DNA of 56,001 nt from a virus, in IMG/VR virus record IMGVR_UViG_3300020057_000388, positions 1 through 56,001 of that record, one strand, 5' to 3'. Below are positions 10,152 through 42,830 of the stretch, piece after piece. The notes below the pieces were generated by a model. The model saw nothing but the letters and a program-made list of their open reading frames with translations, did not search any database and was not told the origin of the DNA. Position 1 is the stretch's first letter, and every line of letters starts with the position of its first letter. A program made the translations under genes and the position numbers.

Positions 10152-10769
10152 GTGGACCTGCTGCCTACCCTAACGATCGTCACGCCGGTGACGCGCGTCG
10201 CGAACCTGCCCGAAATCGGGCGGTCGATCGCGACTGCGCTGCGCAATGCCGGCGAGGACATGCCGATAGTGTGGTGGCGGTCGCTCGCATCGTTCCTCAT
10301 CGTCGATGATGTCACGCAGACTGATCGCGCCTTGCCGTTCCTCTGCCGCATGACGCGCTGCCATGTAACGGGCCGCGTCGGCTCGGCAGAGCGTAGCGAC
10401 GTGCTCGACCGCCTTGCCGGCGGATACGTCTGCTTCCTCGACGACGACACCACGATGCACCCCGAGTATCTGGCGACCGTCGCGCACTACATGCGCACGA
10501 AGCCAGGGCACGCCATCGTTGTCGATCAAGTCGACGCCGCGGGGAACCTGCGGTGCATCGCTGCGCCGGATCGTGTGCAGCCCTGCATGATCGACACGGG
10601 ACAGTGCTGCGTGCCGTTCGACTTGATCGGCGAGCTGCGGTGGAACCGCGATCGCTACGAATGCGACGGGGAGTTTTACCAAGCGGTGTACCAACGCCAT
10701 CCGGCGCGGTTCGTGTTCGTCAATCGCACGCTCTCGATCTACAACGGCATTCCGGCGTGCGACTCGTAG
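10152..10769 (+). CDS. GT-A type glycosyltransferase
   Basis: 205 residues. TLTIVTPVTRVANLPEIGRSI opens a GT-A Rossmann-like fold; CFLDDDTTMHPEYL holds the DxD metal motif and VFVNRTLSIYNGIPACDS closes the domain. The protein should transfer a sugar from a nucleotide donor; donor and acceptor are unknown. GTG 10152 is chosen because GAGGAG lies five bases upstream and the fold starts there. The longer upstream frame is Arg/Pro-rich junk. It heads a five-gene glycan operon and overlaps the next gene by 13 bases. Confidence 0.8.
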   Translation: MDLLPTLTIVTPVTRVANLPEIGRSIATALRNAGEDMPIVWWRSLASFLIVDDVTQTDRALPFLCRMTRCHVTGRVGSAERSDVLDRLAGGYVCFLDDDTTMHPEYLATVAHYMRTKPGHAIVVDQVDAAGNLRCIAAPDRVQPCMIDTGQCCVPFDLIGELRWNRDRYECDGEFYQAVYQRHPARFVFVNRTLSIYNGIPACDS

Positions 10770-11563
10770 CCGGTGGTCCGGGCCTTGGCGATGCCATGGT
10801 CCTTTCCGCGGTGGCGCACGAGATCCGCCGCCAGCGTCCATCGGAACCGATCACCCTCGCTGTCGCCTACCCTGAGCTGTACGTCGGCAATCTCGACGTG
10901 ATGACTGAGCCATGGTCGCCGAGCTCGCCGCGCACGTTCGCGGCGCTCGACGACATGAACACCACGGGCGGTGAGCATCAGGTCACGTTCATGTGTCGGC
11001 AGCTCGGGCTTGAGCCGCCGACGACGATTCAGCAACGCGCATATTTCATGGTGGGTGAGGGTGGCGAATCGCCCCCCTTCCCGCGGTACGTGACGGTCCA
11101 GTCGAGCGCAGGGCCGTGGGCAGGAAACACGAAGCGATGGCCGGCGCAGGACTGGCGCGAGCTGGTCGCCCGCCTCGCGAGCGATGGGCGCGTCAAGGTG
11201 GTGCAGGTCGGGTCGACTGACGACCCGGACGTCGGCGCCGACATCGACGCGCGCGGCTGGCCGGTTCGGCTCAGCATGCGCCTGCTGGCCGATGCGCGCT
11301 GTCACGTCGGACCGATCTCTGGGCCGATGCACCTCGCGAACGCCGTGCGGACGCGATCGGTGATCGTAGCCGGGGGCCGCGAGCAGCGCGAGGTAGTCGG
11401 ATACGTCGGTGACGTGTGGGTCGAGAAACGCGTGGCCTGCTCGCCGTGCTGGCTGACCAGCTGTCCCGTCGAGAACGGCAACAAGATCGCCCCGTGCTTC
11501 TCGGCGATCTCGGTTTTTGAGGTCTTGGAAGCGGTCAACATGGTCCTGGAAGGGGCAGCGTGA
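10757..11563 (+). CDS. Glycosyltransferase family 9 (heptosyltransferase-like)
   Basis: 268 residues of GT-B fold. The N-terminal glycine loop VAGGPGLGDAMVLSAVAHEI, the VTVQSSAGPWAGNTKRWPAQ DWRELVARL segment and GPISGPMHLANAV are typical of GT9 (ADP-heptose transferases and relatives). A Cys-rich stretch (ACSPCWLTSCP) follows. The GTG start lies inside the previous gene. It probably acts on a lipid- or protein-linked glycan in the cytoplasm. A second GT9 is encoded three genes downstream. Confidence 0.85.
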   Translation: MRLVAGGPGLGDAMVLSAVAHEIRRQRPSEPITLAVAYPELYVGNLDVMTEPWSPSSPRTFAALDDMNTTGGEHQVTFMCRQLGLEPPTTIQQRAYFMVGEGGESPPFPRYVTVQSSAGPWAGNTKRWPAQDWRELVARLASDGRVKVVQVGSTDDPDVGADIDARGWPVRLSMRLLADARCHVGPISGPMHLANAVRTRSVIVAGGREQREVVGYVGDVWVEKRVACSPCWLTSCPVENGNKIAPCFSAISVFEVLEAVNMVLEGAA

Positions 11564-12255
11564 GCGAGACGGTTCAGTCAACCGAGATCATCGACGGCGT
11601 GTCGCTCGTCGTGCATGACAGCGCGGGCGCTGGCTCGACGCTCGGCGTCGTCAAGGAGCTGCGCGAAGATTGCTACGGCGTCCGCGAGCTGAACCTGCAG
11701 CCCGGTGACGTCGTCGTCGACATCGGCGCGCACACTGGCGCGTTCGCCTGCTTCCTCGCGCTCCGCTACGGCGTGCGTGCCTATAGCTACGAGCCCGCCG
11801 CCGACAATTTCCGCCACCTGCAGCTGACCATCGCGGCCAACGGTGTCGCCGATCTCGTCGAGCCGCATCATGCTGGCGTGAGCAGTGACGGCCGCGCGGT
11901 CCGGGTCGTAACGCCGAGCTATAACACCGGCGGCGGAAGTAGTTTCTACGTCGGCGACCCGAGCGGACACCTCGTCAGCGAAGCACCATCAACCACGCTA
12001 GACGCCATCTTCGAGCGGTACGCGATCGAGCGCTGTGCGCTGCTCAAGGTCGATTGCGAGGGGATGGAATTCGAGGTGCTGCGGACGTTCGCCGCATGGG
12101 CGAGCGTCGCCAACCTCGGCATGGAAGTGCACGACTTCGGCGACATTCCTGACCGAGACGTGCCGGGCCCGCTGAAGCTGTGTGCGTCACGTGTCAGCGG
12201 TCAGGTGCGCACGGTCGTGATCGCGTCACCGCATAACGGTTTCGAGTGGACGTGA
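11560..12255 (+). CDS. FkbM-family methyltransferase
   Basis: 231 residues. SAM-binding motif I is VVDIGAHTGAFACFLA, followed by AYSYEPAADNFRHLQLTIAAN and the family hallmark LLKVDCEGMEFEVLRTF. FkbM enzymes O-methylate sugars or similar hydroxyls, which fits its position between glycosyltransferases: a cap or decoration step on the glycan. GTG start overlaps the GT9 stop (GTGA). Confidence 0.88.
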   Translation: MSETVQSTEIIDGVSLVVHDSAGAGSTLGVVKELREDCYGVRELNLQPGDVVVDIGAHTGAFACFLALRYGVRAYSYEPAADNFRHLQLTIAANGVADLVEPHHAGVSSDGRAVRVVTPSYNTGGGSSFYVGDPSGHLVSEAPSTTLDAIFERYAIERCALLKVDCEGMEFEVLRTFAAWASVANLGMEVHDFGDIPDRDVPGPLKLCASRVSGQVRTVVIASPHNGFEWT

Positions 12256-12265
12256 GGGGGTCGGG

Positions 12266-12883
12266 ATGCTGAAGCGGTTCGGACTCATTACGGCGGTCGA
12301 TGCAACCGCGATCGCGCACTCGTTGCTCGCGGTTGCGAAACAGTTCGCGGGTACGACGCTGAACCTCTGCGAAATCGGTATTTGCCACGGCGAAACCTCG
12401 CGCGGCATGGCCGAGTTCCTGACCGACCGCGGCATCGCATTTGACTACGTCGGCGTCGACAACGGCCGCGATGGTGCAGGCGGTGCTGTGTGCGCTGACG
12501 TGCCGCCGTTCGCTGGCGCGCGCGTGGTGCAGGGCGAGTCGAGTCACGTCTACATCGAAGTTTCCAACGGGCTGCATTTCCTGTTCGTCGACGGCGGACA
12601 CGACATCAATCACGTGATGCTCGATGCGTTGCACTACGGCGACAAGGTTCTGCCGGGCGGACGCATGATCCTGCATGACGCGTCGCCGCTGGCACAGAAC
12701 AAATGCGACTGGCAGGGCACGGGTCCGAAGCACCACCCCGATTTCGGCACGGCCACGCTCGAAGCCATTCGCAAACTCGGAATGCTGCCGATGCTGCGGC
12801 CCGACTGGCGCATCGTGGAACATACGTACGACCCGGCCCTCGACTACGGCGGTGTCATCGTGTTCGAGCGCGTGGCGATCTAA
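12266..12883 (+). CDS. Class I SAM methyltransferase (Methyltransf_24-like)
   Basis: 205 residues. NLCEIGICHGETSRGMAEFL is motif I, FDYVGVDNGRDG follows, then VSNGLHFLFVDGGHDINHVM LDALHYGDKVLPGGRMILHDAS, the pattern of the Methyltransf_24/cephalosporin-hydroxylase-like group. GAGGGGGTCGGG precedes the ATG. Likely a second glycan-modifying methyltransferase in the operon. Confidence 0.8.
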   Translation: MLKRFGLITAVDATAIAHSLLAVAKQFAGTTLNLCEIGICHGETSRGMAEFLTDRGIAFDYVGVDNGRDGAGGAVCADVPPFAGARVVQGESSHVYIEVSNGLHFLFVDGGHDINHVMLDALHYGDKVLPGGRMILHDASPLAQNKCDWQGTGPKHHPDFGTATLEAIRKLGMLPMLRPDWRIVEHTYDPALDYGGVIVFERVAI

Positions 12884-12886
12884 GCC

Positions 12887-13693
12887 GTGCGCCTATTTCT
12901 GCGCGGTTCGCTCGGCGACGAGGTCGCCATGACGGCCACGGTGCGCGCGCTGCGGGCCTTCCGCCCGAGCGAGCGTGTGACGGTGGACGTCCGACGGCCC
13001 GAGCTGTTCGAGAGCAATCCTCACCTCGAAGGCGGATGGGAAGATGACGGCACCGTCGTTGTTCTGCCGCTCGGTGGGTACGCCGGCCAGCACATGGCCG
13101 ACTCGTACGCCCACGCCTGCGGCATCGACCACGCCTCGCCAATGTACGAGCAGCTGCAGTGCCGTGAGCCTCAGATATTCCTGACCACCGCCGAGCGCGC
13201 GACAGCCAAGGCGCTCGACAATCCTCACGGCGCGGTTGCCGTCGACGCATGGGCCGGATGGCCGAGCCGGCGCTGGCCGCGCGCTTCGTGGGAACGGCTC
13301 GTCGCTGCGTTGTCGGATGAGCTCGTGCCAGTCATCGAAGTCGGCGCGACGGTGCCTGACTGCAACGGTGGTCGCCGCAATAGCCCGCTGCCGCAAACGG
13401 ACGCGAGCTACCTCGACCAGCTGACGATCCGCGAAACCGCGGCCGTGCTCGAACGCTGCGCGCTGTACGTCGGCAACGACTCGGGCCTGATGCACGTCGC
13501 TGCTGCAGTTGACTGCCCGCAAGTCATCGTGTTCGGCGCCATGCCGTCGGCCGTCCGAGCGTACGCCAGCACGACGGCCGCGAATCCGGGCGACCCGTGT
13601 GGCTGCGCTGAGCACTGCATGGCGCAGCCGCAGTGCCCGCTGCGCGTCACGGTCAAGTCGGTTCTCGGAACCGTCCTGCAGCGGCTCTCGTAG
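12887..13693 (+). CDS. Glycosyltransferase family 9 (second copy)
   Basis: 268 residues of GT9 type: LFLRGSLGDEVAMTATVRAL at the N-terminus, AVAVDAWAGWPSRRWPRASWERLVAAL in the middle, and YVGNDSGLMHVAAAVDCPQVIVFGAM, which is the conserved acceptor/donor loop (NDSGLMH). A Cys-rich tail (CGCAEHCMAQPQC) parallels the Cys-rich stretch of the other GT9, so the two are probably diverged paralogues acting in sequence. Starts with GTG three bases after the previous gene. Confidence 0.87.
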   Translation: MRLFLRGSLGDEVAMTATVRALRAFRPSERVTVDVRRPELFESNPHLEGGWEDDGTVVVLPLGGYAGQHMADSYAHACGIDHASPMYEQLQCREPQIFLTTAERATAKALDNPHGAVAVDAWAGWPSRRWPRASWERLVAALSDELVPVIEVGATVPDCNGGRRNSPLPQTDASYLDQLTIRETAAVLERCALYVGNDSGLMHVAAAVDCPQVIVFGAMPSAVRAYASTTAANPGDPCGCAEHCMAQPQCPLRVTVKSVLGTVLQRLS

Positions 13694-18101: not shown

Positions 18102-19163
18102 GTGGCGAATCAAGAGGCAGCGCAGGGATTCAAACCGGGGATGTTCTCGCGGCCCGACCGCGTCCACGCGCCTTTGCATGTGGTGTGCACCCTGTTCAAT
18201 TCAGCGCGCTACCGTTCTCGCTGGGATCTCTACGAGCCTTTTGCGAAGATGGTTCACGACGCGGGCGCCGTCCTGCATACGGTCGAGGTCGCGTTCGGGG
18301 ATCGTGACCATGCGGTGCCGGAGTATGCGCCCGCGATGGATTCGGCGACGCCGTCATGGGTGCCGACTCCGCAGCACCAATATACGCGCCTGCGCACCAA
18401 GTCCGAAATCTGGCACAAGGAGTCGTCACAGAATGTCGGCGTGACCCGGCTTCCCCATGACGCCGAGTACATCCTTTTTCTCGACGCCGACGTTCGTTTC
18501 GTTCGGCCGGATTGGGCAGGTGCCATCGTTCAGGCACTGCAACACTACGCGGTGCTGCAGCCGTGGAGTGAAGCACTCGACCTGACGCACGACTTCAGGC
18601 CGCACCAGACACACAAGTCATTCGCGGCGTGTTTTCGCGAGGGCGATCAACGCAACCCCACTGGTCACCGTCCGTACTACGGCGGTCCGGTGCAGCCAGG
18701 CAAAACGCACCTGTGGCATCCGGGTTTCGCGTGGGCGTGGCGCCGGGATGCGCTCGACGCGGTTGGCGGGCAGATTGATTTCGCCATCGCTGGCGCCGGT
18801 GACCATCACCAAGCGCAAGCGCTGATCGGTGAGGTAGACCGATCGTTCCATCCGAAGGCGCACCCCGGCTATGTTCGTCGGTTGCATGAGTGGCAGGCGC
18901 TGGCCGAGCGCGAGATCCGACGCAACATCGGGTTCATCCCTGGCCTCATCACGCATGCTCATCATGGGCCGAAGCGGTCGCGGCAATACTGGCAGCGCTG
19001 GCGCATCCTGGTCGACAACGGATTCAACCCTGACGTTGATCTCAAGCGTGACTGGCAGGGGCTCTATCAGCTCGTCGATGACGGCTCTGCGCGGTCGAGG
19101 AATCTGCGCGACCAGCTGCGGACGTACTTTGCTTCGCGGAACGAAGACGATCCAAACACTTGA
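18102..19163 (+). CDS. GT-A type glycosyltransferase
   Basis: 353 residues. LHVVCTLFNSARYRSRWDLYEPF opens the fold, YILFLDADVRFVRPDWA carries the DxD motif, and HLWHPGFAWAWRRDALDAVGG with ITHAHHGPKRSRQYWQRWRIL completes a phage-type GT seen in large glycan modules. The GTG start has AGGTGG upstream. It is separated from the 10-13.7 kb glycan operon by the methylase insertion but is plausibly part of the same system. Confidence 0.8.
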   Translation: MANQEAAQGFKPGMFSRPDRVHAPLHVVCTLFNSARYRSRWDLYEPFAKMVHDAGAVLHTVEVAFGDRDHAVPEYAPAMDSATPSWVPTPQHQYTRLRTKSEIWHKESSQNVGVTRLPHDAEYILFLDADVRFVRPDWAGAIVQALQHYAVLQPWSEALDLTHDFRPHQTHKSFAACFREGDQRNPTGHRPYYGGPVQPGKTHLWHPGFAWAWRRDALDAVGGQIDFAIAGAGDHHQAQALIGEVDRSFHPKAHPGYVRRLHEWQALAEREIRRNIGFIPGLITHAHHGPKRSRQYWQRWRILVDNGFNPDVDLKRDWQGLYQLVDDGSARSRNLRDQLRTYFASRNEDDPNT

Positions 19164-19990: not shown

Positions 19991-20768
19991 CACTGGGGGT
20001 CAGGTCCGCGAGTCCGTTGGTGGTCGACCTGAAGTGGCACTCGACCTAACCCAGCTCTACAAGTTGGCGCTTCGCGCATCGACGGTCGCTGACGTGGCGC
20101 AATGGTTCTGCGTCTCCGAGCGAACGGTCTACCGACGACTGCTGGAGGAGCCCTACGCTTCTATCTGGGCGCGAGGGCAGGCAGAGGCGAAGGTCAGCGT
20201 GCGCGCGGCCCTCTTTGGGATGAAGGATACCAACGCGACCGCGGCGATCTTCCTCGCGAAGAATCTCTGCGGGATGACGGATAAGGTCGCCCACGAGCAC
20301 GCCGGCCCCGGTGGCGGGCCGATCGCAATGGTGACGACGTACGCCGACCTAGCTCGCGAAGCCGAGGCGCTGATTCGCAAGGGGGTGCGAATCGAAGGCT
20401 ACGACTACATTGACGGGGAGCTAGTGCCGAATGACGAGGGCGAGGACACCCGAGGATCAGAAGATCATCAACCACCTGACCAACAAGCAACGCCCGGAAT
20501 GGTGGGTCGAGACGCACCTATCGGGGAAGCTCTGGCCGAAGCAGGTAGAGATCCTGCGCTCGATCAAGAAGAATCGACGCACGGCGGTGCGCTCGTGCCA
20601 TGGCGCGGGCAAGACGCACTTGGCAGCGAGAGCGGCCCTGCAGTTCGGGTGCTGTCACCCGTACAGCATCGTGATCACGACAGCGCCGACGGGGCGCCAG
20701 GTGCGGAAGCTGCTGTGGCAGGAGCTGCGGAAGGCGCACTCGACAGCGCTTCGGCCGTTGGGTGGTAA
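19968..20768 (+). CDS. Terminase small subunit-like protein with long overlap into terL
   Basis: From ATG 19968 the frame gives 266 residues. The first about 155 form a small terminase: a helix-turn-helix (VADVAQWFCVSERTVYRRLLEEP), then YASIWARGQAEAKVSVRAALFGM and AAIFLAKNLCGM, which recognise pac/cos DNA. From 20431 on the frame overlaps TerL by 338 bases and becomes Gly/Ala/Pro/Glu-rich without motif; that tail may be a genuine dual-coded extension or the result of a lost stop codon. A second in-frame ATG lies at 19944. Confidence 0.75.
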   Translation: MKLVVASDTGGQVRESVGGRPEVALDLTQLYKLALRASTVADVAQWFCVSERTVYRRLLEEPYASIWARGQAEAKVSVRAALFGMKDTNATAAIFLAKNLCGMTDKVAHEHAGPGGGPIAMVTTYADLAREAEALIRKGVRIEGYDYIDGELVPNDEGEDTRGSEDHQPPDQQATPGMVGRDAPIGEALAEAGRDPALDQEESTHGGALVPWRGQDALGSESGPAVRVLSPVQHRDHDSADGAPGAEAAVAGAAEGALDSASAVGW

Positions 20769-21825
20769 GCTCAACCTCACCGACCTGACGTTCGAGGATG
20801 GGTGGTACCTGTTCGGGTTCGCGACTGACGACCCGACGAGCTTTCAGGGCGTCCACCCGTCGAGCGGTCACATTCTGATCATCGTCGACGAGGCAAGCGG
20901 CGTCGCGGATGAAATCTGGGAAGCCATCGACGCGGTCATGTCGTCGGGTGGCGCCCGGCTGCTGAGCATCGGCAACCCAACCGATCCTAACAGCCGCTTC
21001 GCTCAAGAGTTCAAAACCCCCGGCGTCGAGAAAATCAAAATCACGGCGTTCGATACGCCGAACCTGCAGGGCAACGGTATCGTCATCCCTGGCCTGGTCA
21101 CACAGGAATGGGTCGACGACATCGCCGCACGCTACGGCGAGGAGTCATCGTTTTACATCAGCCGCGTGCTGGCTGACTTCCCCGAGCTGGGCGACGACAC
21201 GTTGTTCCCGCTCTCGTGGATCGAGCGCGCCATGGCCCGAGAGATCGAGCCCAAGGCGACCGACCCGAAGGGGCTCGGCGTCGACGTCGCACTGTACGGG
21301 GGCGACGAAACCGTCATCGCGACCCGGCATGGACCGCGGGTGCGCCTGGTCGAGTGCTACCGGAACCAGGATACGATGGCGACCGCCGGTCGGGCGAAGA
21401 TATGGCGCCGCGACTTCGGAGCCGAGGTGATCGGCGTGGACGCCAACGGCATCGGCGCCGGGGTGCACGATAAGCTGATCGAGGAAGGGGAACCGTCCGA
21501 GCCGATCAACGTCGGCACACGCGCCCACGACCCCGAGCGGTACTTCAACCGCCGCAGCGAATTGTATTGGGCGGTGCGCGAGCGTCTGAAGTCGGGCGAC
21601 TGCGATCTGCCGCAGGATGATCTGCTGTGCGCGCAAATGTCGGCGATCCGCTACCGCGTGAACGGGAAGGGTCAGATTCAAGTCGAGAGCAAGGACGACA
21701 TGCGCAAGCGCCTGAAGCACCGCGCCGGGGTGAACAGCCCTGACCGTGCGGATGCCGTGGTGCTGGCCTACGCAGCGCGGTCGTCGTCGCTCATCAGCAT
21801 CGACAACGCGATTTCGTTTGGGTGA
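20431..21825 (+). CDS. terL: Terminase large subunit
   Basis: 464 residues. N-terminal ATPase: Q-motif region WPKQVEILRSIKKNRRT, Walker A SCHGAGKT at 55-62, Walker B ILIIVDEAS with D153-E154, and the TTAPTGRQV coupling segment. C-terminal RNase H-like nuclease: GLGVDVALYGGDETVIATRHG and VIGVDANGIGAGVHDKL provide the acidic residues, ending with NSPDRADAVVLAYA. It powers DNA packaging into proheads and cuts the genome. Start lies inside the TerS frame. Confidence 0.93.
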   Translation: MTRARTPEDQKIINHLTNKQRPEWWVETHLSGKLWPKQVEILRSIKKNRRTAVRSCHGAGKTHLAARAALQFGCCHPYSIVITTAPTGRQVRKLLWQELRKAHSTALRPLGGKLNLTDLTFEDGWYLFGFATDDPTSFQGVHPSSGHILIIVDEASGVADEIWEAIDAVMSSGGARLLSIGNPTDPNSRFAQEFKTPGVEKIKITAFDTPNLQGNGIVIPGLVTQEWVDDIAARYGEESSFYISRVLADFPELGDDTLFPLSWIERAMAREIEPKATDPKGLGVDVALYGGDETVIATRHGPRVRLVECYRNQDTMATAGRAKIWRRDFGAEVIGVDANGIGAGVHDKLIEEGEPSEPINVGTRAHDPERYFNRRSELYWAVRERLKSGDCDLPQDDLLCAQMSAIRYRVNGKGQIQVESKDDMRKRLKHRAGVNSPDRADAVVLAYAARSSSLISIDNAISFG

Positions 21826-22867: not shown

Positions 22868-22896
22868 CAAACATGCTGGAAACGGATAGAGAACGA

Positions 22897-23949
22897 ATGA
22901 CCTATGCGCTACACCACGGCGACTGCATGGAGGTTATGCGGACGCTACCGGACAACTCCATCGATCTTGTGCTGACTGACCCGCCCTACTTCAAGGTCAA
23001 GGGCGACGATTGGGACAGGCAATGGGATAAGCCGGACGCCTTTCTCTCGTGGCTGGATGGTGTGGTGGAACAGTTCGTGCGCGTGTTGAAGCCGAATGGG
23101 AGCCTGTACCTGTTCGCCAGCCCGCAGATGGGTAGCCGCGTAGAAATGCAGATTGCCGTGCGCTTGAGCGTGCTGTGCAACATTCGATGGCGCAAGGAGC
23201 AGGGGTGGCATAATGGGGCATGTAAGGATGATTTACGCGGTTACTTCCCCGCCTCCGAAACAATCATCTTTGCCGAGCACTACGGCGCGGACAACATCGC
23301 CAAGGGTGGGGCGGGCTATGCGGCCAAGTGCGACGAGCTGCGGGGGTTCATCTTTGAGCCGTTGCGGGCTTATATCGCGGGCGAGTGGCAGCGCGCTGGC
23401 CTGACTTCGCGAGACGCCAACATCGCAACATCCAGCCAGATGGCGGGCCACTACCTGAGCCGCGTTCAGTGGAGGCTGCCTACGCGCGAGAAGTACGAAC
23501 AGCTTCGCGCCTATGCCAACCGCCAAGGCGGCGAGTATTTGCGCAAGGACTACCATTATTTGCGCAAGGACTACCATGAATTGCGCAAGGATTACGAGGA
23601 CTTGCGCAAGGACTACCATGAATTGCGCAAGGATTACGAGGACTTGCGGCGACCGTTCGCAGTCACCGCTGATGTCCCCTATACCGACGTTTGGGACTTC
23701 CCCACGGTGCAGGCATACAGGGGCAAGCACCCATGCGAGAAGCCGCAGGCGCTGTTGCGGCACATCATCGCGGCCAGTTCCAAGCCTGGCGCTGTAGTGC
23801 TTGACGCATTCGCGGGATCGGCCAGCACTGGTATCGCATGTCAGGCGATGGGCCGCTCGTTTATCGGGATCGAGAAGGATGCGGGCTATTACGCCAGTGC
23901 AACCGAACGGCTGTTTGATCGCCAAGAATCACTACTGGCAGCGGCATGA
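22897..23949 (+). CDS. DNA adenine/cytosine-N4 methylase with heptad repeats
   Basis: 350 residues of the N6/N4 DNA-methylase family in permuted order: catalytic DPPY at 28-31 (LVLTDPPYFKV) near the N-terminus and the SAM site VVLDAFAGSASTGIACQ near the C-terminus. Between them lies YLRKDYH/ELRKDYE repeated five times, ending in the usual EDLRRPF. The repeats are probably an extended helical linker and their number may vary. It likely protects phage DNA or mimics host methylation. The start at 22897 is preferred because a near-identical start (MTYALHHGDC) recurs in the truncated paralogue at 23960; ATG 22873 is also in frame. Confidence 0.85.
   Translation: MTYALHHGDCMEVMRTLPDNSIDLVLTDPPYFKVKGDDWDRQWDKPDAFLSWLDGVVEQFVRVLKPNGSLYLFASPQMGSRVEMQIAVRLSVLCNIRWRKEQGWHNGACKDDLRGYFPASETIIFAEHYGADNIAKGGAGYAAKCDELRGFIFEPLRAYIAGEWQRAGLTSRDANIATSSQMAGHYLSRVQWRLPTREKYEQLRAYANRQGGEYLRKDYHYLRKDYHELRKDYEDLRKDYHELRKDYEDLRRPFAVTADVPYTDVWDFPTVQAYRGKHPCEKPQALLRHIIAASSKPGAVVLDAFAGSASTGIACQAMGRSFIGIEKDAGYYASATERLFDRQESLLAAA
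23536..23649. repeat. 21-bp tandem coding repeats (42-bp higher order)
   Basis: Five complete 21-bp units at 23536-23640 with the core TTGCGCAAGGA-TA, then the start of a sixth. Units 3-4 and 5-6 form a 42-bp alternation (GAA-start then GAC-start). In frame, each unit adds one heptad (x-LRKDY-x) to the methylase. Confidence 0.9.
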
Positions 23950-29609: not shown

Positions 29610-30173
29610 ATGAAACTATCTCACTGGGCGAAACAGAACGGAATTGCGTACATCACCGCTTGGCGATGGTTCAAAACAGGCAAGCTGCCGGTTGTGGCGT
29701 ACAGAGCGCCAAGCGGTGCAATATTAGTTGAACCGAAGTCGCAAAGGAAAGAGTCTCTGTCAGCGTCGGTGTATTGCCGAGTGTCTTCGCATGACAAGAA
29801 GGCTGATTTGGATCGACAGGTTGAGCGGTGTTTAGAGTTTTGCAGGGGCAGAGGGTTTGTTGTTGACAAGGTTGTGAAGGAAATCGCTTCTGGAATGAAC
29901 GACCGGCGAAAGAAGCTAACCGCCCTACTTCGCTCCAATCCAGATCGGATAGTCGTGGAACACAAGGACCGCCTGACTCGATTTGGATTCGCGTATTTTG
30001 AAGAACTTCTGCCGAAGTGTGGTTGCGAACTCATCGTCATCAACAGAGACTCAGAAGCAAAAGATGATTTAGTAAAGGATTTAATTGCGGTTGTAACCAG
30101 CTTCTGTTGCCGATTGTATGGGATGCGTCGCGGCAGCAAGAAGGCCGCTGTCATTGCGAAGGAACTCGAATGA
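29610..30173 (+). CDS. tnpA: IS607 TnpA serine recombinase
   Basis: 187 residues. A MerR-like helix-turn-helix at the N-terminus (KLSHWAKQNGIAYITAWRWFKTGKLP) precedes the resolvase domain with YCRVSS (catalytic Ser about residue 59), SEIASGMNDRRKKLTALL-type turn and EHKDRLTRFGFAYFE. Domain order HTH-then-catalytic is diagnostic of IS607. It excises and inserts the element. The TGA overlaps the tnpB ATG. Confidence 0.92.
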   Translation: MKLSHWAKQNGIAYITAWRWFKTGKLPVVAYRAPSGAILVEPKSQRKESLSASVYCRVSSHDKKADLDRQVERCLEFCRGRGFVVDKVVKEIASGMNDRRKKLTALLRSNPDRIVVEHKDRLTRFGFAYFEELLPKCGCELIVINRDSEAKDDLVKDLIAVVTSFCCRLYGMRRGSKKAAVIAKELE

Positions 30174-31243
30174 GGCGAGCCTGTGAGGTAACTCTGAAGT
30201 TTGCGACCGACCACAAGCGACAAGCCATTGCCGCTTTGCTGGAATCCTATCGTGGTGCGGTCAACTTCTACCTCCGTTCGGTATGGAATGATCGCGGTTC
30301 GCTCGACAAGCCAACGCTGGCCCGGCTGACGTGTACGCGATTGTCCGAACGGTACAAGAGTCAAGCCTTGAAGCAAGCGTTGGAAATGGTCGTGGCAACA
30401 AAGAAATCAGCCAAGGCATTGGGAAAACAGGCGAGTTGCCCAGTATTTCGCGGCTCCGCCGTGCTGGACTCTAAGTTTGTCGGCGTAGAAGTCGGTCGCG
30501 GTTCGTTCGATCTGATCGTTCGGTTGTCCACGCTGCACGCCGGGCATCGTATCACGATCCCAACGAAGCGAACTACCATCGTCAACAAGTGGCTAGACGT
30601 CTCCGGAGCGAAATTCATTCAAGGTTGTGCCCTGAGTGAAGATGCTTTGATCGTGTGGATCGACGCACCCACTAAAACAACCAAGACAGGCGGCATCACA
30701 CTGGGATTGGACCTTGGCTTGAATAAGCTGATTTCCGACTCGGACGGCAACCACTATGGCCGCGAGTTTATCGCCATTCGAGACAAGATTCGTCGCCGTA
30801 AGCCTGGCTCGAAGTCGCGGCAACGAGCCTTTCGCGAACGCGAGAACTACATTAACCGGACCATCAATCTTTTGCCGTGGAGTACGCTGGCAACGCTTGG
30901 AGTCGAGAAGTTGCATGACATGAAGCGTGGCAAACAAAAGAAAAGAGGTAAGGCATTTAGAAAAGCAATCGCACCTTGGACCTGTCGCCGAGTTCTTACG
31001 CGGATTGGACATAAGGCCGAAGAGCACCGTGTGCAGCTTCACGCCGTTCCTCCCGCGTACACTTCGCAGACGTGCCCCGAGTGTGGAAGGTGCGATCGTG
31101 ACAACAGAAAGGGAGAGCATTTTGCGTGCGTTGGCTGTGGCCACACGTCCGACTCCGATCATATTGGGGCACGCAACGTGTTCGCTCGTACCTTGGAAAC
31201 TTTGCGGAGCGTAGAGTCCCGCAAGCTCATAAAGGCAATGTAA
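30170..31243 (+). CDS. tnpB: TnpB RNA-guided nuclease of the IS607 element
   Basis: 357 residues with an intact RuvC domain: D181 in LGLDLG, E246 in LGVEKLHD, D330 in SDSDHIGARN, and a zinc ribbon C302-x2-C305 / C320-x2-C323 (CPECG, CVGCG). TnpB uses an omega RNA made from the 3' end of the element to cut at sites marked by a short motif, favouring retention. Only about 20 bases lie between the stop and the right end, so the omega RNA would mostly overlap the gene's 3' end. ATG 30170 overlaps tnpA. Confidence 0.92.
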   Translation: MRRACEVTLKFATDHKRQAIAALLESYRGAVNFYLRSVWNDRGSLDKPTLARLTCTRLSERYKSQALKQALEMVVATKKSAKALGKQASCPVFRGSAVLDSKFVGVEVGRGSFDLIVRLSTLHAGHRITIPTKRTTIVNKWLDVSGAKFIQGCALSEDALIVWIDAPTKTTKTGGITLGLDLGLNKLISDSDGNHYGREFIAIRDKIRRRKPGSKSRQRAFRERENYINRTINLLPWSTLATLGVEKLHDMKRGKQKKRGKAFRKAIAPWTCRRVLTRIGHKAEEHRVQLHAVPPAYTSQTCPECGRCDRDNRKGEHFACVGCGHTSDSDHIGARNVFARTLETLRSVESRKLIKAM

Positions 31244-34204: not shown

Positions 34205-36415
34205 ATGCCGAAGCGCAAACACATGAACCGCCCCGATCGTGCCGGCAATGCTGCAGGCGCGGTGACCCGCGGCGAGGTCGACGCGCATGTACGTTCGAGC
34301 GTCGACGCGATGGCGAGAGCCTTCTATTCCGGCGTTGTCGACGGGAACGGCCGCGCTTATGGAGGTCGCGGCGCCGAGGCATCGTTCTCAACGCATGACC
34401 TGCTGTTCTCGGCGATGTCGCTGCTCATGCAGGACGTCGCCGCGATTCCCCGCAAGCTGATCAAGGGCAAGGGCCCCGAAGCCATCGACACCGATCCGGT
34501 GCTCGACTTCGTGAACGACAACCCGAACCCCGGTCGCTACCCGGACGGCGACTACGTCGTGCAGCTCCTGTGCGGCTACCTGCTCGAAACGGGTAACGCC
34601 TGGATCTGGACCAGCTCGATGCTGGACAGCCGGACCGGCCTGCCCATCGAGATGCTGGTGCTCGGCCTGCAGCACGTGTCGCCGGTGATCGACTACGTGA
34701 CCGGCTCGCTGAAGGCGTGGCGCATCACGTGGGGCTCGCAACGGAAAGACTTCCCGCCCGAGTACCTGACGCACGTCAAGCTGCTGCCCGACCTGAACGA
34801 CAAGTATCAAATCTTAGGCTGCGGCCCGGTGCGCGCTGCCGCGTCGAAGGTCGATGGCAACTATGCGCGCCAGCTCTACGACAAGGCGTTTTTCGAGCGC
34901 GGCGCGGAGCCGAGCGCCGTGGTGCGCTACGGCGCTGACGGTGACACCCGGATTCCGCAGGTCGTCGACAAGGCCACGCTCGATGCGATGGTGCGCGGCT
35001 TCAAGGAACGACACGTCGGCGTCGAGAACATGCGCGGGGTCGTTGGCCTGAACGCCGGCTGGCACCTCGAACCGTTCGGCGGTGATCTCGGCGACCTGCA
35101 GCTCGTCGAGATGGCGGTGCAAGGCGTCAAGGACGTCGCCCGCATTTTTAAGATTCCGCCCCCGAAGCTCGGTGACTATTCCGACGTTGGACTGTCACGC
35201 GAGGGCATCGAAGCAACGGACATCATCTACGCGGTTCAGGCCGTCGTGCCGCTCGCGAAGATCGTCTTTTCTGGCCTGACACATGCGCTCGTTGCGCATC
35301 TGAACGGCCGCAAGTTCTACCTCGACCGCGACGAGATCGACGCCCTGCGCGGTCGCTTCGAGGACAAGGTCAAGAATTACGGCACGCTCGTCGACAAGTT
35401 CGTGTCGCCCCGTGTGGCCGCAGAGCTGGTCGACTTGGGTGCGAACCCGGATGACCTGACCGACGAGGTGCTGGTGCGCGGCGTGGTCACCACGCTGGAG
35501 CAGGCAACCGCCGAGCCCGAGGAGCAACCCGCCGCACTGGCAGGGGCACCGCCGCCGCTCGCCATCGACGAGGTCGACGACCTGACCGATGGCGCACCCG
35601 AGCCCGTCGCCACTGACGAGACGGCGCGCGGCTGTGGCTGCGGTCATGGACGCTTCGCCCGCAACTTCCAGCCGAAGCGCCTGCGCGAATGGCGGGCGTT
35701 CGTCGCGAAGTGGGCACCGCTCGAAACGACAACGCGGAATCGCCTGAAGCGGTACTTTCGCGGGCTCCGCACCGAGACGTTAGCGAACCTCGAACGCGTG
35801 GTCGGACGCAACGTCCGCAGCGTCGACGAGGACACCAAACGCATTCTGTTCGACGAGCGCGCGGCGGATCGCGAGCTGCGGAGCTTCATTGCCCCGTACC
35901 TCGAACAAGCCATCGGCATCGGCGTCGACGACGTCGCTGAGATCCTGGGCGCTGACCCGCTCGCCATTGAGTCGGGCGCCGCGGATGCGCTGCTGCGCGA
36001 CAAGACGATCCGCGTGGTGCGGATCAACGACACGCTGCGCGAGTCGCTGCGCGTCACGCTCCGCGAAGGGCTGAACAAGGGCGAGGCAATCAACGACCTA
36101 GCTGCCCGCGTCCGCCTTACGTTCCAAGATCGCGCCGAGAACGGTGCGAGCCGCACCCGCACCATCGCCCGCACCGAGATCGGCGGCGCCGTCAACGGCA
36201 GCAAGCGCGTCGAGATGAAGGCGCAGGGCGTGAAGAAACGCGAATGGATGACGTCGGGTGATGAATTCGTGCGCGACTCGCACGTCGCCGTCGACGGCGA
36301 AATTCGCGACATGGACGAAGTGTTCTCGAATGGCCTCGCCATCCCCGGTGATCCGAGCGGCGCTGCCGAGGAAGTCATCAACTGCCGCTGCACGACGACA
36401 CCTGTCGTCGCCTAA
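34205..36415 (+). CDS. Portal protein fused to MuF-type head morphogenesis protein
   Basis: 736 residues. Residues about 40-430 are an HK97-type portal (FVNDNPNPGRYPDGDYVVQLL, LETGNAWIW, FFERGAEPSAVVRYG, IPPPKLGDYSDVGLSREGIEATDI, LVAHLNGRKFYLDRDEI). An Ala/Pro-rich linker follows. Residues about 500-736 are SPP1 gp7/Mu F-like (ARTEIGGAVNGSKRVEMKAQGVKKREW, VRDSHVAVDGEIR, INCRCTTTP). The portal forms the DNA channel; MuF domains help head assembly or DNA ejection. The joined form is known in some phages. The long linker fits a fusion, not a frameshift. Confidence 0.88.
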   Translation: MPKRKHMNRPDRAGNAAGAVTRGEVDAHVRSSVDAMARAFYSGVVDGNGRAYGGRGAEASFSTHDLLFSAMSLLMQDVAAIPRKLIKGKGPEAIDTDPVLDFVNDNPNPGRYPDGDYVVQLLCGYLLETGNAWIWTSSMLDSRTGLPIEMLVLGLQHVSPVIDYVTGSLKAWRITWGSQRKDFPPEYLTHVKLLPDLNDKYQILGCGPVRAAASKVDGNYARQLYDKAFFERGAEPSAVVRYGADGDTRIPQVVDKATLDAMVRGFKERHVGVENMRGVVGLNAGWHLEPFGGDLGDLQLVEMAVQGVKDVARIFKIPPPKLGDYSDVGLSREGIEATDIIYAVQAVVPLAKIVFSGLTHALVAHLNGRKFYLDRDEIDALRGRFEDKVKNYGTLVDKFVSPRVAAELVDLGANPDDLTDEVLVRGVVTTLEQATAEPEEQPAALAGAPPPLAIDEVDDLTDGAPEPVATDETARGCGCGHGRFARNFQPKRLREWRAFVAKWAPLETTTRNRLKRYFRGLRTETLANLERVVGRNVRSVDEDTKRILFDERAADRELRSFIAPYLEQAIGIGVDDVAEILGADPLAIESGAADALLRDKTIRVVRINDTLRESLRVTLREGLNKGEAINDLAARVRLTFQDRAENGASRTRTIARTEIGGAVNGSKRVEMKAQGVKKREWMTSGDEFVRDSHVAVDGEIRDMDEVFSNGLAIPGDPSGAAEEVINCRCTTTPVVA

Positions 36416-36445: not shown

Positions 36446-37984
36446 ATGGCAACCGTCATCAATCGCATTCGTGCGCTCGCCGGACAGGCGATCCAGAACC
36501 TTCCCGCCCTCAAGTTCCGCGAGGGCACCGACAAGGCGACCCGCGCCCAAGCCGAGGGCATGCTGTCGACCCTTCAGCGCGGTGAGATGGTCACCGTTCG
36601 CACCGTCGCCTCATTCGGTGCGCGCGTGTTCACTGGCGCCGAGTTCGGTGGCTGGGAACGCACGGCCAACTTCGAGGCGTGGCAGCGCGCGACTGACGGC
36701 GGGGGCGATGGGCGCCTGCTCGAATTCGTCGCCGTGTCCGAGGGCGACAAGCGCGATGGCTCGCGCATTCGCGTCGACGGCATCGACACCACGAACCTGG
36801 CGAAAAACCCGGTGTTCTTGTGGAACCATAACAGCGGTGGCCCGCTGCCGCCGATTGGTCGCATTGTCGCGATCAAGAAGGCGGACCACGTCGGCCTCGG
36901 TCGCGTGCTGATGATCCGCGTCGCGCCGCTCGCGACGACCGACGGCACCGAACACCTCGACTTTGCGCGCATGATCTTCTCGATGTTCGAGAACGGCGAC
37001 ATGCACGCCGTCTCGTTCGGATGGGTGCCGACCGACTATGAGGTCATGTACTCGGATGACGGGTACTTCCTCGGGTTCGACTTCCTTAAGTCGGATGCCC
37101 TCGAAGTCTCGGCGGTGCCGACTCCGGCTGACCCGGACGCGCTGAAACAGCACGCCGGCAGCGCCTGCGCGTACCGCTCAGCTGCGAGCAAGTTCCCTGA
37201 CCTGTTCACGACCCGGCGCGATTCCGGCGTGTTCATGCTGCGGGACGGCGTCGAGCTGGGACCGCTGTTCCGACTCGCCGACGAAGGCGCCACGACGAGC
37301 AGCGTCGAGGGCCAGCCGCCGATTCCCGCGCCCGCGCGCGAGGAGGGTGGCAGCCAGAATGCCGCCGCTGAGCCTTGCAGTGTTCCGTTACCAACGGAAC
37401 AGGCCGAGAAGCTGCGCGGCATCTTCGCCGGCCCGGTCCGCGAGGCGCTGGCTGCGAACGATACGAAAGAGCTGCTGACGCTCGTGCGCGAGCTGATCGC
37501 CGCAGGCACCGCGGCCGACGAAGTCTATGCGGCCGTCGAGTCCGAGCGTGATGCTGCGCACGAGGAAGCGGCCCTTGCGATCGAGACGGCTGAGCGTGTC
37601 GCTGGTCTGTTCGGCGACAAGTCCATCGTCGGCCAGCGTGCCGGCAAGTCCCTGTCGCGCAAGAACCGCGAGAAGGTCGAGGCTGCGCACGCAGCGTGCT
37701 CGGCTGCGACCACGGCGTTGCGCGACCTGCTCGATTCGACGTCGGAAAGCACGACCGACGACACGAGCGACGACGATGCGCGCTCGGTGTCTGATGCACT
37801 GACCCGTCTGCAGGCGTCGGCTGAAACCCTGGCCCGCGCGAACGGTACCGACACCGTGTCGGTGCTCGCCGCGGCTCAACGGTCAGTCGAGCGCTTGGCG
37901 GCGCTGGTGTCGCCCCCTGCGCCCGACATCGGTGGTGACATTTACGCCGGTATCTTCGCCCGCGCTGCCGTCGTCGGCGCGTAA
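36446..37984 (+). CDS. Prohead protease with C-terminal scaffold-like part
   Basis: 512 residues. N-terminal HK97-family serine protease: H128 in LWNHNSGG, S190 in MHAVSFGW, and the EVSAVPTPADPDAL end of the domain at about residue 230. The remaining 270 residues are helical, Ala/Glu/Arg-rich with coiled-coil character (AALAIETAERVAGLF... ALTRLQASAETLARANGTD), which is likely the scaffold cleaved during maturation. A strong ribosome site (AGGAG) precedes the ATG. Confidence 0.85.
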   Translation: MATVINRIRALAGQAIQNLPALKFREGTDKATRAQAEGMLSTLQRGEMVTVRTVASFGARVFTGAEFGGWERTANFEAWQRATDGGGDGRLLEFVAVSEGDKRDGSRIRVDGIDTTNLAKNPVFLWNHNSGGPLPPIGRIVAIKKADHVGLGRVLMIRVAPLATTDGTEHLDFARMIFSMFENGDMHAVSFGWVPTDYEVMYSDDGYFLGFDFLKSDALEVSAVPTPADPDALKQHAGSACAYRSAASKFPDLFTTRRDSGVFMLRDGVELGPLFRLADEGATTSSVEGQPPIPAPAREEGGSQNAAAEPCSVPLPTEQAEKLRGIFAGPVREALAANDTKELLTLVRELIAAGTAADEVYAAVESERDAAHEEAALAIETAERVAGLFGDKSIVGQRAGKSLSRKNREKVEAAHAACSAATTALRDLLDSTSESTTDDTSDDDARSVSDALTRLQASAETLARANGTDTVSVLAAAQRSVERLAALVSPPAPDIGGDIYAGIFARAAVVGA

Positions 37985-38091: not shown

Positions 38092-39474
38092 ATGAGTGCA
38101 ACCGATGCCAAGAATCACCCCGTAGCGCCCGACACGGGCTCGCTTCACACCGCGATCGCGACCCTGGAGCGCAACAGCGACCAGATCGCGCGCGACGCAG
38201 CCAGCATCAAGGAGGATGCAAAGGCGGCTCGCGAGGCAGCTGAAGCCGGCAAGATCACTGCCGAGCAGTACGCGCGCACCGCGGCCGAGCTGGTCGAGGC
38301 AAACGCTAAGCTCGACTCGCAGCGTGCGGTCGTCGAGAAGCTGAGCGCCCGGTGCGACGTGCTGGAGAAGAACCAGACGCGTTCCAGCATCATCGACGAA
38401 AAGGAATACGTCGCCGAGTTCTCGCAGCGGAACGGCGGGCTGTCGCGGAAGCAGCGCGAGAGCATCACTCAGTTCGGCCGCTGGGTCGAGGACCGCACGC
38501 GCGTCGAGATGGAAGCGAAGCCGCGCAACTTCGGTCCCGAGATGTTCAAGCGCGGGTCCGGCCAGGATGAAGGCGCACCCTCGGGCGGCGTGTCCAAGGG
38601 CGGCAACCTCATCATGCAGCAGATTTTCGACGAGGTGCAGTGGCTGCAAGACGAGTACGGCACGGTCCTGCGTGACGCACGCGTCGTGCGGATGACGAGC
38701 CCGACGCTCGACATCCCGACCGCGGCCAACGCCTGGACGCTGGAGTACCCCGGCGAGACGAACGGCCCGGCGGCTTTCGCCGGCTCCGAGATCATCGACC
38801 CCAAGCCTCGCCTCGATGCCAAGACGGCGATCGCCAAGTCGAAGATCAGCTTCGAGCTGAATCAGGACATGCCGATCGGCTTCCTCGATTTTATGATGGA
38901 GCAGGCGTTCGAGACGTTCGGCCTAGAATACGACCGCGTCGGCCTCGCGACCAATAACAGCCCGACCGGCTGGTACGGCGCGCTGTACGCTGCGGGCGCA
39001 TTCGCGCACAGCCTCGGTGGCAGCTCGACCAGCGGCAAGACGTCGATGTCCAACATCGCCTATGACGATTTCGTCGACGCGATGTCCAAGGTCGACAAGC
39101 GCGTGCACCTGACGGGCAAGTTTTACTTCAGCTCGTACGTTGCGGATCTCACCCGCAAGATCAAGGACAGCGCACTGCAGCCGCTGTTCTCGCCGATGAT
39201 GGCCGGCGCCCCTGCCACCATCCTCGGTCGCCCGTGGGAAGTCTGCAGCGTGCTGCCGGACATCACCACGAACGCAACTGCGGGCATGCCGTTCGCCCTG
39301 TACGCGAACCTGCGTCGGGCGCTGTTCTTCGGCCTGCGCCATGATCTCGAAATCGCGTTCAGCGATCACGCGGAGTTCTACTCCGGCGGCATGGGCATCC
39401 GGCTCATTTCGCGGTTCGCGCCCAAGGTCGTGCTGCCGAAAGCAATCGTGATCATCAAAAATGCGGCTTCGTAA
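38092..39474 (+). CDS. Major capsid protein, HK97 fold
   Basis: 460 residues. The N-terminal 110 are a helical delta domain (IATLERNSDQIARDAASIKED AKAAREAAE), then the HK97 capsid: NLIMQQIFDEVQWLQDEYGT, ANAWTLEYPGETNGPAAFA GSE, ELNQDMPIGFLDFMMEQAFE, and the end FALYANLRRALFFGLRHDLEIAFSDHAEFYSGGMGIRLISR. The delta domain should be removed by the protease. Flanked on both sides by terminators, so it likely has a separate abundant message. Confidence 0.92.
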   Translation: MSATDAKNHPVAPDTGSLHTAIATLERNSDQIARDAASIKEDAKAAREAAEAGKITAEQYARTAAELVEANAKLDSQRAVVEKLSARCDVLEKNQTRSSIIDEKEYVAEFSQRNGGLSRKQRESITQFGRWVEDRTRVEMEAKPRNFGPEMFKRGSGQDEGAPSGGVSKGGNLIMQQIFDEVQWLQDEYGTVLRDARVVRMTSPTLDIPTAANAWTLEYPGETNGPAAFAGSEIIDPKPRLDAKTAIAKSKISFELNQDMPIGFLDFMMEQAFETFGLEYDRVGLATNNSPTGWYGALYAAGAFAHSLGGSSTSGKTSMSNIAYDDFVDAMSKVDKRVHLTGKFYFSSYVADLTRKIKDSALQPLFSPMMAGAPATILGRPWEVCSVLPDITTNATAGMPFALYANLRRALFFGLRHDLEIAFSDHAEFYSGGMGIRLISRFAPKVVLPKAIVIIKNAAS

Positions 39475-39568: not shown

Positions 39569-40570
39569 ATGCTCAAAGTCGCGTGGATCGGTGACGACTA
39601 TCTGGCAACGGGGCGCGGCTACGGCTACGCCGTCGCGGCCGAAGGAATCAAGCAGGCGCTCGCGCCGTACGTCGATTGGGATGACGCCGCGCCGCTCGCG
39701 TTCACCGTCGCACCGCCGACCGACTTGCCCGAGAAGATCGAAGGCAAGCGGCTCGTCGCTTACACGATGTTTGAGTCGCCCGACCTACCGCGAGGCGCCC
39801 GCGATGCGCTCGCGCGCATGGACCTGCTCGTTGTGCCGTCGAAGTTCTGTCGCTCGATCTTCTTGAACGTCCGCGAGGATCTACCCGTGCTGCTCGCGCC
39901 GCTTGGCGTCGATCCGATGCCGCTCGTGGAACGCACCTACGGTGTGCCGTTCCGCTTCTTGTGGGTCGGCGCCGCGAGCTTACGCAAGGGGCAGGTGATC
40001 GCCGCGCAGGCGTACGTCCTCGGCCAGCTGAAAGACTGCGGTGCGCACCTGTACCTCAAGACGACCACGCAAGATCCGAACGACCCCGGCAAGATCGAGA
40101 CGAACGACAGCGGAACCATTCACTACGACACCCGCAACCTGACGCGTGCCGAGCTGGGCGAGCTGTACGCCAGCGCGCACGCGTTCGTGTACCCGACGAT
40201 TGGCGAAGGCTTCGGCATGACGCTCGCGGAAGCGATGACGTCGGGCCTGCCGTGTATCGCTCCCGAGTGGGGCGGACACCTGGAATTCGCCAGCGAGCGC
40301 AACTGCCTGCTGCTGCCGGCGCAGCCGATTCGCGTCGGCGTTACGCACGGGGAGCATGCCGCCGAGACTGATGACGGGAAGTACCGGCAAGCGATGACCG
40401 GGCCGAACGACTTCGCCGAAGCGATGCTCGTCACCATGCTGAAGTACGACCAGACGCTAGAGCTTGGCGCCGAGGGCGCGCGCTACATCCGGCGCGAATT
40501 CACATGGGCGAAATGCGGAGCGCGCATCGCCGAAATTCTCACCGACGCGCAGAAGCGTTTCCAGCTCTGA
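39569..40570 (+). CDS. GT4-type glycosyltransferase
   Basis: 333 residues of GT-B fold. VAWIGDDYLATGRGYGYA opens the N-terminal domain, YTMFESPDLPRGARDALARMD LLVVPSKFCRS is a hallmark also found in the glycosyltransferase at 48906, and EGFGMTLAEAMTSGLPCIAPEWGG is the donor-binding E-x7-E region (FVYPTIGEGFG). ATG 39569 has GGAGG six bases upstream. It is placed directly after the capsid gene, so virion proteins are plausible acceptors (inference). Confidence 0.87.
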   Translation: MLKVAWIGDDYLATGRGYGYAVAAEGIKQALAPYVDWDDAAPLAFTVAPPTDLPEKIEGKRLVAYTMFESPDLPRGARDALARMDLLVVPSKFCRSIFLNVREDLPVLLAPLGVDPMPLVERTYGVPFRFLWVGAASLRKGQVIAAQAYVLGQLKDCGAHLYLKTTTQDPNDPGKIETNDSGTIHYDTRNLTRAELGELYASAHAFVYPTIGEGFGMTLAEAMTSGLPCIAPEWGGHLEFASERNCLLLPAQPIRVGVTHGEHAAETDDGKYRQAMTGPNDFAEAMLVTMLKYDQTLELGAEGARYIRREFTWAKCGARIAEILTDAQKRFQL

Positions 40571-40834: not shown

Positions 40835-41251
40835 ATGGCAACTGAAAGCGTACAGAAGGGCACCGTTCCATCAGGCGGCGCCGAGATCGCGACCGAAACA
40901 AACACCGAGGACAGCAAAACCAAACACTGGCAGCGTATCACCGTCGATGGCCGCAACGGCAAGTCGGTCACCGATGCGCTGAGCGCGAGCACGCCGGACG
41001 GCACCGTGACGGTGACGACATCGTCCACACTGCTGCTCGCCGCAAACGCCAACCGCGTAGGATTCTCAATCAACAATATCGGCGGCGCAAATATCTTCGT
41101 GCGTCTCGCATCGACCGGCGCCACGACGACAGCCGGCCACAGGATCACGCCCGGCGGCTTCTGGGACATGCAGGGCATTGGCCTATTCCGCGGCGCGCTA
41201 TGCGCCATCACCTCGTCAGGCACTGCTGATGTGCGCGTATGCGAGTGGTAA
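40835..41251 (+). CDS. Beta-rich virion-region protein
   Basis: 138 residues. DGTVTVTTSSTLLLAANANRVGFSINNIGGANIFVRLAS and GHRITPGGFWDMQGIGLFRGALCAITSSGTADVRVCEW match small phage beta-sandwich proteins placed near the capsid that may decorate the head or tail. The stop meets the stop of the reverse HNH gene with no gap. Confidence 0.6.
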   Translation: MATESVQKGTVPSGGAEIATETNTEDSKTKHWQRITVDGRNGKSVTDALSASTPDGTVTVTTSSTLLLAANANRVGFSINNIGGANIFVRLASTGATTTAGHRITPGGFWDMQGIGLFRGALCAITSSGTADVRVCEW

Positions 41252-42523: not shown

Positions 42524-42826
42524 ATGTTAAAGCTGCTTTCCACCGCGCTGCTCCTAGCGTTCGTCACTCCAGCCTTCGCCGCCGACCCGATCTGCCGCTT
42601 TGCGGTCGAGCGGGAGTGTGTCTCCGTCGCGGCGCAGTGCCAGCGTGACGTCAATCTCACGAGCGAGTCGGACGCGGTCAAAAGCGCCGAGCTTGCCGCG
42701 TGTGACGCGAAATCCGTGGCATGCGCGGAGCGGATGCGTCGGCCAGCCGAGGACTGCGCCACGCTTCAGCGGACGCTCGATGCGACGTTGCGCGGGACGC
42801 GCCTTACGCCGGCTCAGACGACGTAA
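42524..42826 (+). CDS. Small exported Cys-rich protein
   Basis: 100 residues. Signal peptide LLSTALLLAFVTPAFAADP, then DPICRFAVERECVSVAAQCQRD with repeated Cys (CDAKSVACAERM, EDCATLQRT). The even number of Cys after the signal indicates disulfides in the periplasm or outside. Second consecutive exported product in the structural module. Confidence 0.65.
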   Translation: MLKLLSTALLLAFVTPAFAADPICRFAVERECVSVAAQCQRDVNLTSESDAVKSAELAACDAKSVACAERMRRPAEDCATLQRTLDATLRGTRLTPAQTT

Positions 42827-42830
42827 CCCC

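Follow-up and report, generated by a model that had tools for sequence, protein, structure and literature searches.

Paired GT4-type glycosyltransferase genes at the capsid and tail tube junctions of a phage genome, and their possible role in virion glycosylation

Why should a phage carry genes for sugar transfer directly beside those for its capsid and its tail tube? The question is raised by the IMG/VR virus record IMGVR_UViG_3300020057_000388, which was analyzed over its whole length of 56,001 bases (63.6% G+C; in the following "the window"). By gene content the phage is of the siphovirus type. Nine sugar-related open reading frames (ORFs), seven glycosyltransferases (GTs) and two methyltransferases, are spread over the window. 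Two of them are GT4-type paralogs, of which one (GT4a) lies behind the major capsid gene and the other (GT4b) ahead of the tube gene. Our reading, to which we assign a probability of about 0.7, is that the phage glycosylates its own capsid and tube by these partner-specific GT4 enzymes, whose activity, acceptors and donors we infer.

The nine genes and the predicted fold of GT4b

All nine ORFs reported in the first-pass annotation of this DNA are present, and the families given there were borne out, weakly for two of the nine: the GT-A protein at 10152 stays below the Pfam cut-off, and the protein at 18102 has no Pfam match.

10152-10769, + strand: GT-A glycosyltransferase of the early-region cassette (GTG start at 10152; PF00535 E 1e-3, below Pfam cut-off)
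10757-11563, + strand: GT9, heptosyltransferase-like (PF01075 E 4.5e-8)
11560-12255, + strand: FkbM-family methyltransferase (PF05050 E 3e-14; TIGR01444 E 3e-23)
12266-12883, + strand: Methyltransf_24 (MT24) methyltransferase (PF13578 E 2.5e-11)
12887-13693, + strand: GT9, heptosyltransferase-like (PF01075 E 3e-15; PDB 1psw, lipopolysaccharide (LPS) heptosyltransferase II, E 1.5e-6)
18102-19163, + strand: putative GT-A glycosyltransferase (phrog_13126 E 0.0035, weak; no Pfam or NCBIfam match)
39569-40570, + strand: GT4a, capsid-side glycosyltransferase (PF13692/PF00534/PF20706 and phrog_2170, E about 1e-24; YTMFESPD; ribosome-binding-like GGAGGGG upstream)
48160-48909, + strand: GT2-like glycosyltransferase (PF00535 E 1e-3; phrog_22332 E 1e-4)
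48906-49949, + strand: GT4b, tube-side glycosyltransferase (PF13692/PF00534/PF20706 and phrog_2170, E about 1e-24; YTMWESPD)

The neighbours of the two GT4 genes are:

38092-39474, + strand: major capsid protein, HK97 family PF05065 (PF05065 E 4e-22; phrog_10 E 2e-29)
40835-41251, + strand: small protein encoded downstream of the capsid-side GT4, in the window as in the related phages G001 and G004 described below (28-30% identity in alignment A7)
47693-48163, + strand: tail terminator (by position and syntenic relatives)
50009-50275, + strand: HNH-like homing endonuclease candidate between GT4b and tube (by eye)
50362-51351, + strand: tail tube protein (phrog_290 E 1.4e-5; syntenic, ahead of chaperones and tape measure)

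GT4a is separated from the end of the capsid gene by 94 bases, and overlaps of 4 bases connect the tail terminator gene with GT2 and GT2 with GT4b. With 33% identity over 336 amino acids (E 1e-45) GT4a and GT4b are paralogs. Both contain the block YTM(F/W)ESPD, as had been noticed before; its use as a sign of co-evolution did not stand, since the signature V(L/A)YTM(W/F)E marks the subfamily and is present in most relatives. The two GT9 proteins are also paralogs (28-30% identity). The Cys-rich C-termini reported for them occur in both, with different spacing.

For GT4b a two-domain GT-B fold was predicted (AlphaFold2, predicted local distance difference test (pLDDT) 88, predicted template modelling score (pTM) 0.89). 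In a Foldseek comparison with the PDB the model matched MshA, PimA, BshA and B736L at E 1e-10 to 1e-12. The best fold match is the chlorovirus GT 3oy2 (B736L-type) with a template modelling (TM) score of 0.70; at 15% identity it shares the fold of GT4b but belongs to a virus of eukaryotic algae. The chlorovirus capsid is glycosylated. The EX7E motif of the C-terminal domain is present in the window GT4 proteins as GEGFGMTLAEA and GEGWGLTLLEA, the EG of this motif is kept in 16/16 aligned relatives and the catalytic GEGFG...E block in nearly all. By the EX7E motif of both and the predicted fold of GT4b the two proteins fit the retaining CAZy family GT4 with GT-B fold, with sugar transfer as presumed activity.

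A different role is suggested by the Pfam name GT4-conflict: PF20706 lies above its cut-off for both GT4 proteins, which could accordingly belong to a biological-conflict system of defence or counter-defence. General GT4 models match about equally well, however, PADLOC gave no match for GT4a, GT4b, GT2 and one GT9 protein (GT9b), and the neighbours of the GT4 genes are virion genes. We regard a conflict function as highly improbable.

Placement of the GT4 genes in related and distant phages

Relatives were searched with an alignment of the two window GT4 proteins; the virion genes of the hits are only distantly related. G001 (IMG/VR 3300006802_000982) shows the order capsid, GT4, 40835 homologue and, further downstream, adaptor, neck, tail-terminator-like gene, GT4, tube and chaperones. 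For G004 (3300034980_000276) the order is capsid, GT4, 40835 homologue and, further downstream, GT4, tube, chaperones and tape measure. The head part of G012 (3300020057_000496, 166,852 bases) consists of terminase, portal, protease, capsid, GT4 and an island of sugar-related genes, its tail part of adaptor, tail-terminator-like gene, GT4, tube, HNH-like gene, chaperones and tape measure. With the window, four phages therefore possess both GT4 copies at both places, behind the capsid and ahead of the tube gene. The GT2 gene found between tail terminator and GT4b in the window is not present at that place in G001, G004 and G012.

The window capsid is 28% identical to the capsids of G001 and G004 and the window tube 32-35% to their tubes, whereas G001 and G004 share 37% (capsids) and 44% (tubes) with each other. 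The GT4 proteins of window, G001 and G004 exhibit 32-38% identity and have diverged as much as the virion proteins. Since capsid, tube and GT4 are all strongly diverged and the order is the same, the GT4 pair stayed put while its surroundings diverged. Contigs L003 to L006 are near copies of the window (at least 99.7%) and add no evolutionary information. The earlier inference that GT genes beside capsid and tube point towards virion glycosylation is supported by this conserved placement. The co-occurrence in related phages that had been proposed as a check was found for the GT4 pair, which recurs in G001, G004 and G012, and not for the GT9 genes (0/6 related records) or the GT2 family (1/6).

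The small 40835 protein is possibly a decoration protein and an alternative acceptor of GT4a; its structure prediction is of low confidence (pLDDT 51), with a fold too poor to use. The island of G012 (L048:12732-20678) is opened by the capsid-side GT4 and comprises GT2, radical-SAM-like and methyltransferase genes including an MT24-like one, after which the tail genes resume. The same capsid-side GT4 (L048:10022-12220; also L046, L047) holds an intein inside the catalytic EX7E motif (GEGFGL / TAAEA), with Cys start, HN end, +1 Thr and a LAGLIDADG endonuclease (PF14890, PF14528); this is an unusual intein host gene.

The GT4 tree supports a core clade comprising ten rows (97/98). The capsid-side copies of G001 and G004 are sisters (98/94), as are the tube-side copies of window and G001 (96/80), which are joined by the window capsid-side copy (93/95). 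Separate capsid-side and tube-side clades were not supported, and because the labels are intermixed within one supported clade a single ancient duplication with strict specialisation does not explain the pairs. Copies were probably replaced or re-duplicated and then retained at the same two junctions.

Beyond this lineage, L013, L015, L022, L025 and several dozen more contigs have a GT4 gene after a P22-type coat gene, mostly with a gap of 40-200 bases, and in the L021 group it follows a few genes behind a third capsid family. Capsid-side partners comprise PF05065, PF11651 (P22-type) and, less tightly, PF13252. As these are different families, the placement looks to have been reached more than once. 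On the tube side, GT4 stands immediately ahead of the tube gene in L011. Among cultured isolates, the order tail terminator, GT4, small ORF, tube is found in Microbacterium phage Magritte (gp31) and the Arthrobacter phages KellEzio (gp28) and DanielleIgnace (gp21), and Kitkat gp29 likewise lies between tail terminator and tube, comparable to GT4b. These GT4 proteins of Magritte and the Arthrobacter phages are annotated only as glycosyltransferase, and a literature search on the KellEzio gene found no paper. The seven reference-phage records with a KellEzio-type tube are the same seven with a full-length Magritte-type GT4, although they represent only three lineages. Further modification genes adjoin GT4 in some loci: radical SAM (L045), radical SAM-like and sulfotransferase (L011), a methyltransferase assigned by eye (L016) and the GT2-rich island of G012. 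They look like lineage-specific elaborations of the modification.

For a quantitative estimate the GT4 proteins were grouped into 47 clusters at 60% identity, 40 of which have a recognised capsid or tube gene in the fetched stretch. In 30 of these 40 the gene lies within 500 bp of GT4. Random genes drawn from the same loci would yield 5.4, and none of 200,000 simulations reached 30. The tube call of L026, a PHROG Ig-domain match, is doubtful; leaving this locus out gives 29/39, or 29/46 if loci without a recognised gene are counted as misses. These cluster statistics overstate independence, since many loci are related and some GT4 queries were picked from genes already adjacent. With ten hand-drawn groups the result is weaker, about five of ten being adjacent (P about 0.006). 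At both levels the GT genes associate genetically with virion protein genes beyond chance.

On the glycosylation reading, GT4a would be made together with the capsid protein and add a sugar to it or to the 40835 product. GT4b, perhaps aided by GT2 (48160), would be made with the tube protein and add a sugar to the latter. Each GT4 would draw on a host nucleotide-sugar donor, and the position of the GT4 gene beside that of its acceptor may provide for joint late expression. Depending on the phage, the GT4 family accompanies only the capsid, only the tube or both, and in phages such as KellEzio it occurs in genomes that otherwise yield no GT2 or GT9 match; both facts favour protein acceptors on the particle. 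We see roughly even chances that unrelated tailed phages have on several occasions turned this GT4 subfamily into a GT dedicated to capsid or tube and retained it next to the acceptor gene, so that in many uncultured phages gene order alone would predict the glycan-bearing structural protein.

Besides the dependence among loci and the weaker ten-group result, several observations weigh against virion glycosylation. Neither capsid nor tube of the window has an obvious Ser/Thr-rich C-terminal tail. In T4-like contigs GT4 is located 1.6-2 kb from the tail tube gene, and the GT4 genes of one clade, which come from large phages, are 3.8-6 kb distant from the capsid or tube gene. Both window proteins match PHROG 2170, and the reference phages with GT4 relatives (22-33% identity) are mostly Streptomyces phages; unlike the window GT4 genes, the Streptomyces members that were inspected have no V(L/A)YTM(W/F)E, do not lie beside capsid or tube and occur near ribonucleotide reductase. 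Capsids and tubes related to the GT4-linked ones also occur without GT4: similarity to the G004 capsid is detectable in the capsids of 367 reference phages, but GT4 matches were obtained only in actinobacterial phages and a few others. An absence of the GT genes from relatives with the same virion genes had been named beforehand as counter-evidence. Here the outcome is divided: the closest of the divergent relatives have both GT4 genes in the corresponding positions, and very distant relatives lack GT4.

The placement away from capsid and tube in some GT4 clades would also suit morons, i.e. genes that modify the host surface (LPS, teichoic acid or O-antigen) and exclude other phages, inserted at late-operon junctions which, beside highly expressed virion genes, tolerate insertions. 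HNH genes inserted near the same junctions in window and G012 point in this direction, and GT9 and GT2 enzymes typically serve cell-surface glycans. A patchy distribution would be expected of morons, yet four divergent phages have retained the paralogs at both junctions, and the GT4 family turns up again next to capsids that belong to different families. Late expression would moreover be poor timing for receptor alteration. We consider host-surface modification unlikely. Bacterial or prophage copies were looked for in two genome scans, which revealed just two weak hits in metagenome-assembled genomes; the one inspected was without virion context.

The early cassette and gene 18102

Nine genes forming one co-evolving system had been proposed initially. 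This part of the first-pass annotation was not sustained. GT9 was found in 0/6 and the GT2 family in 1/6 related records (G012); the six include the complete Magritte and KellEzio genomes, and several are fragments. Queries with GT9 and MT24 gave no relative among reference phages or viral contigs. Xanthomonas phage XaC1 encodes, away from recognisable virion genes, an unannotated protein that is 40% identical to the 18102 protein over 94%; a PDB sequence search with the latter gave no match. System-like behaviour is confined to the two GT4 genes. The cassette (10152-13693) and the 18102 GT are probably separate, phage-specific genes, whose products may lengthen and methylate the same glycan or else act on the host surface.

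An extension of virion glycosylation by GT4, not exclusive of it, would nevertheless combine all nine genes in one pathway for a single complex virion glycan: the cassette would assemble and methylate it, while GT4 and GT2 attach the first sugar. The combination of GTs with an O-methyltransferase is known from mycobacteriophages Corndog and Che8, whose gene sets the cassette resembles in make-up (PMC4351075), Che8 gp108 being a GT2-MT24 fusion. The cassette includes both an MT24 and an FkbM methyltransferase, and the sugar-related gene island beside the capsid-side GT4 of G012 fits as well. The absence of GT9 from the related records and the lack of relatives for GT9 and MT24 argue against a joint pathway, as does the distance of 25 kb between cassette and capsid gene. 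We hold it for doubtful, if less so than a moron function.

Modification of phage DNA bases, as in T4-like phages, was considered as well, since phage GTs of several families glucosylate DNA and the window phage encodes three DNA methyltransferases. However, no gene for hydroxymethyl-pyrimidine synthesis was recognised in the window, and a placement at two junctions by capsid and tube is not expected for such enzymes. The probability of this explanation is very small.

Known systems and further contents of the window

In mycobacteriophages Che8, Corndog and Myrna, virion proteins including capsid and tail tube are glycosylated by phage GTs (Freeman 2023, according to the passages on this work in PMC12363180 and PMC12619734). 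The earlier statement that glycosylated virions are established for some actinobacteriophages agrees with what these passages report. Like these phages, the window phage encodes GTs, and its GT genes in the structural region resemble the situation in Corndog, where they lie between portal and protease, joined by a methyltransferase (PMC4351075). In contrast to the window GT4 genes, the Che8 enzymes are of the GT2-MT24, GT2 and GT25 types and are encoded at the right genome end instead of at capsid and tube junctions. As homologues they were rejected: BLASTP of gp108-110 against the nine window proteins gave no match below E 0.2. The window differs from Che8 also in that one GT4 paralog accompanies each structural gene at its own junction, an arrangement for which no report was found in the open-access literature. 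The proposed function is consequently not new, phage-encoded glycosylation of capsid and tube being established for mycobacteriophages, but enzyme family (compared to Che8) and arrangement differ.

Only in very few phages has glycosylation of the particle been demonstrated, and there the glycan influences recognition by antibodies. If the GT4 family marks glycosylated virions, the phenomenon would be much more widespread, including P22-type coats and possibly T4-like phages, and virion glycosylation could be read from gene order. Magritte and KellEzio differ from the window in having a single GT4 and no GT9 or GT2 Pfam match in either genome; for their lone GT4 beside the tube gene the model predicts a sugar on the tube protein, which is gp33 in Magritte and gp30 in KellEzio. 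As a separate observation, GT4 of the T4-like phages L027-L033 lies just behind a collagen-like Gly-Ser-Thr repeat protein, a few genes ahead of the tail tube.

The remaining virion genes of the window are as follows.

20431-21825: terminase large subunit
34205-36415: portal fused to a head-morphogenesis domain
36446-37984: protease
46016-47008: head-tail adaptor
47010-47696: neck protein
about 53100 to the right end: tape-measure frame, open

Because the tape-measure frame is still open at the right end, the record is cut inside this gene. A reference-phage search with the window capsid gave no relatives, and tRNA genes were not found in the 56,001 bases. At 29610-31243 an IS607-like element is inserted in the phage genome, with a serine-recombinase-like ORF (29610-30173) overlapping a TnpB-like ORF (30107-31243; both by eye). 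The 916-amino-acid protein encoded at 15099-17849 matches the C-terminal 895 of 1646 positions of a Type IIG restriction-methyltransferase model (1250 bits); since the N-terminal part is missing, the phage seems to have retained an orphan modification portion. In the DNA methyltransferase at 22873-23949 the two matched stretches are separated by LRKDYHE/LRKDYED units repeated in tandem (23539-23648). Among the head-tail genes, 42600-44711 encodes a protein of 703 amino acids which consists mostly of a degenerate repeat around TS(A/E)ERVE(S/A)LA.

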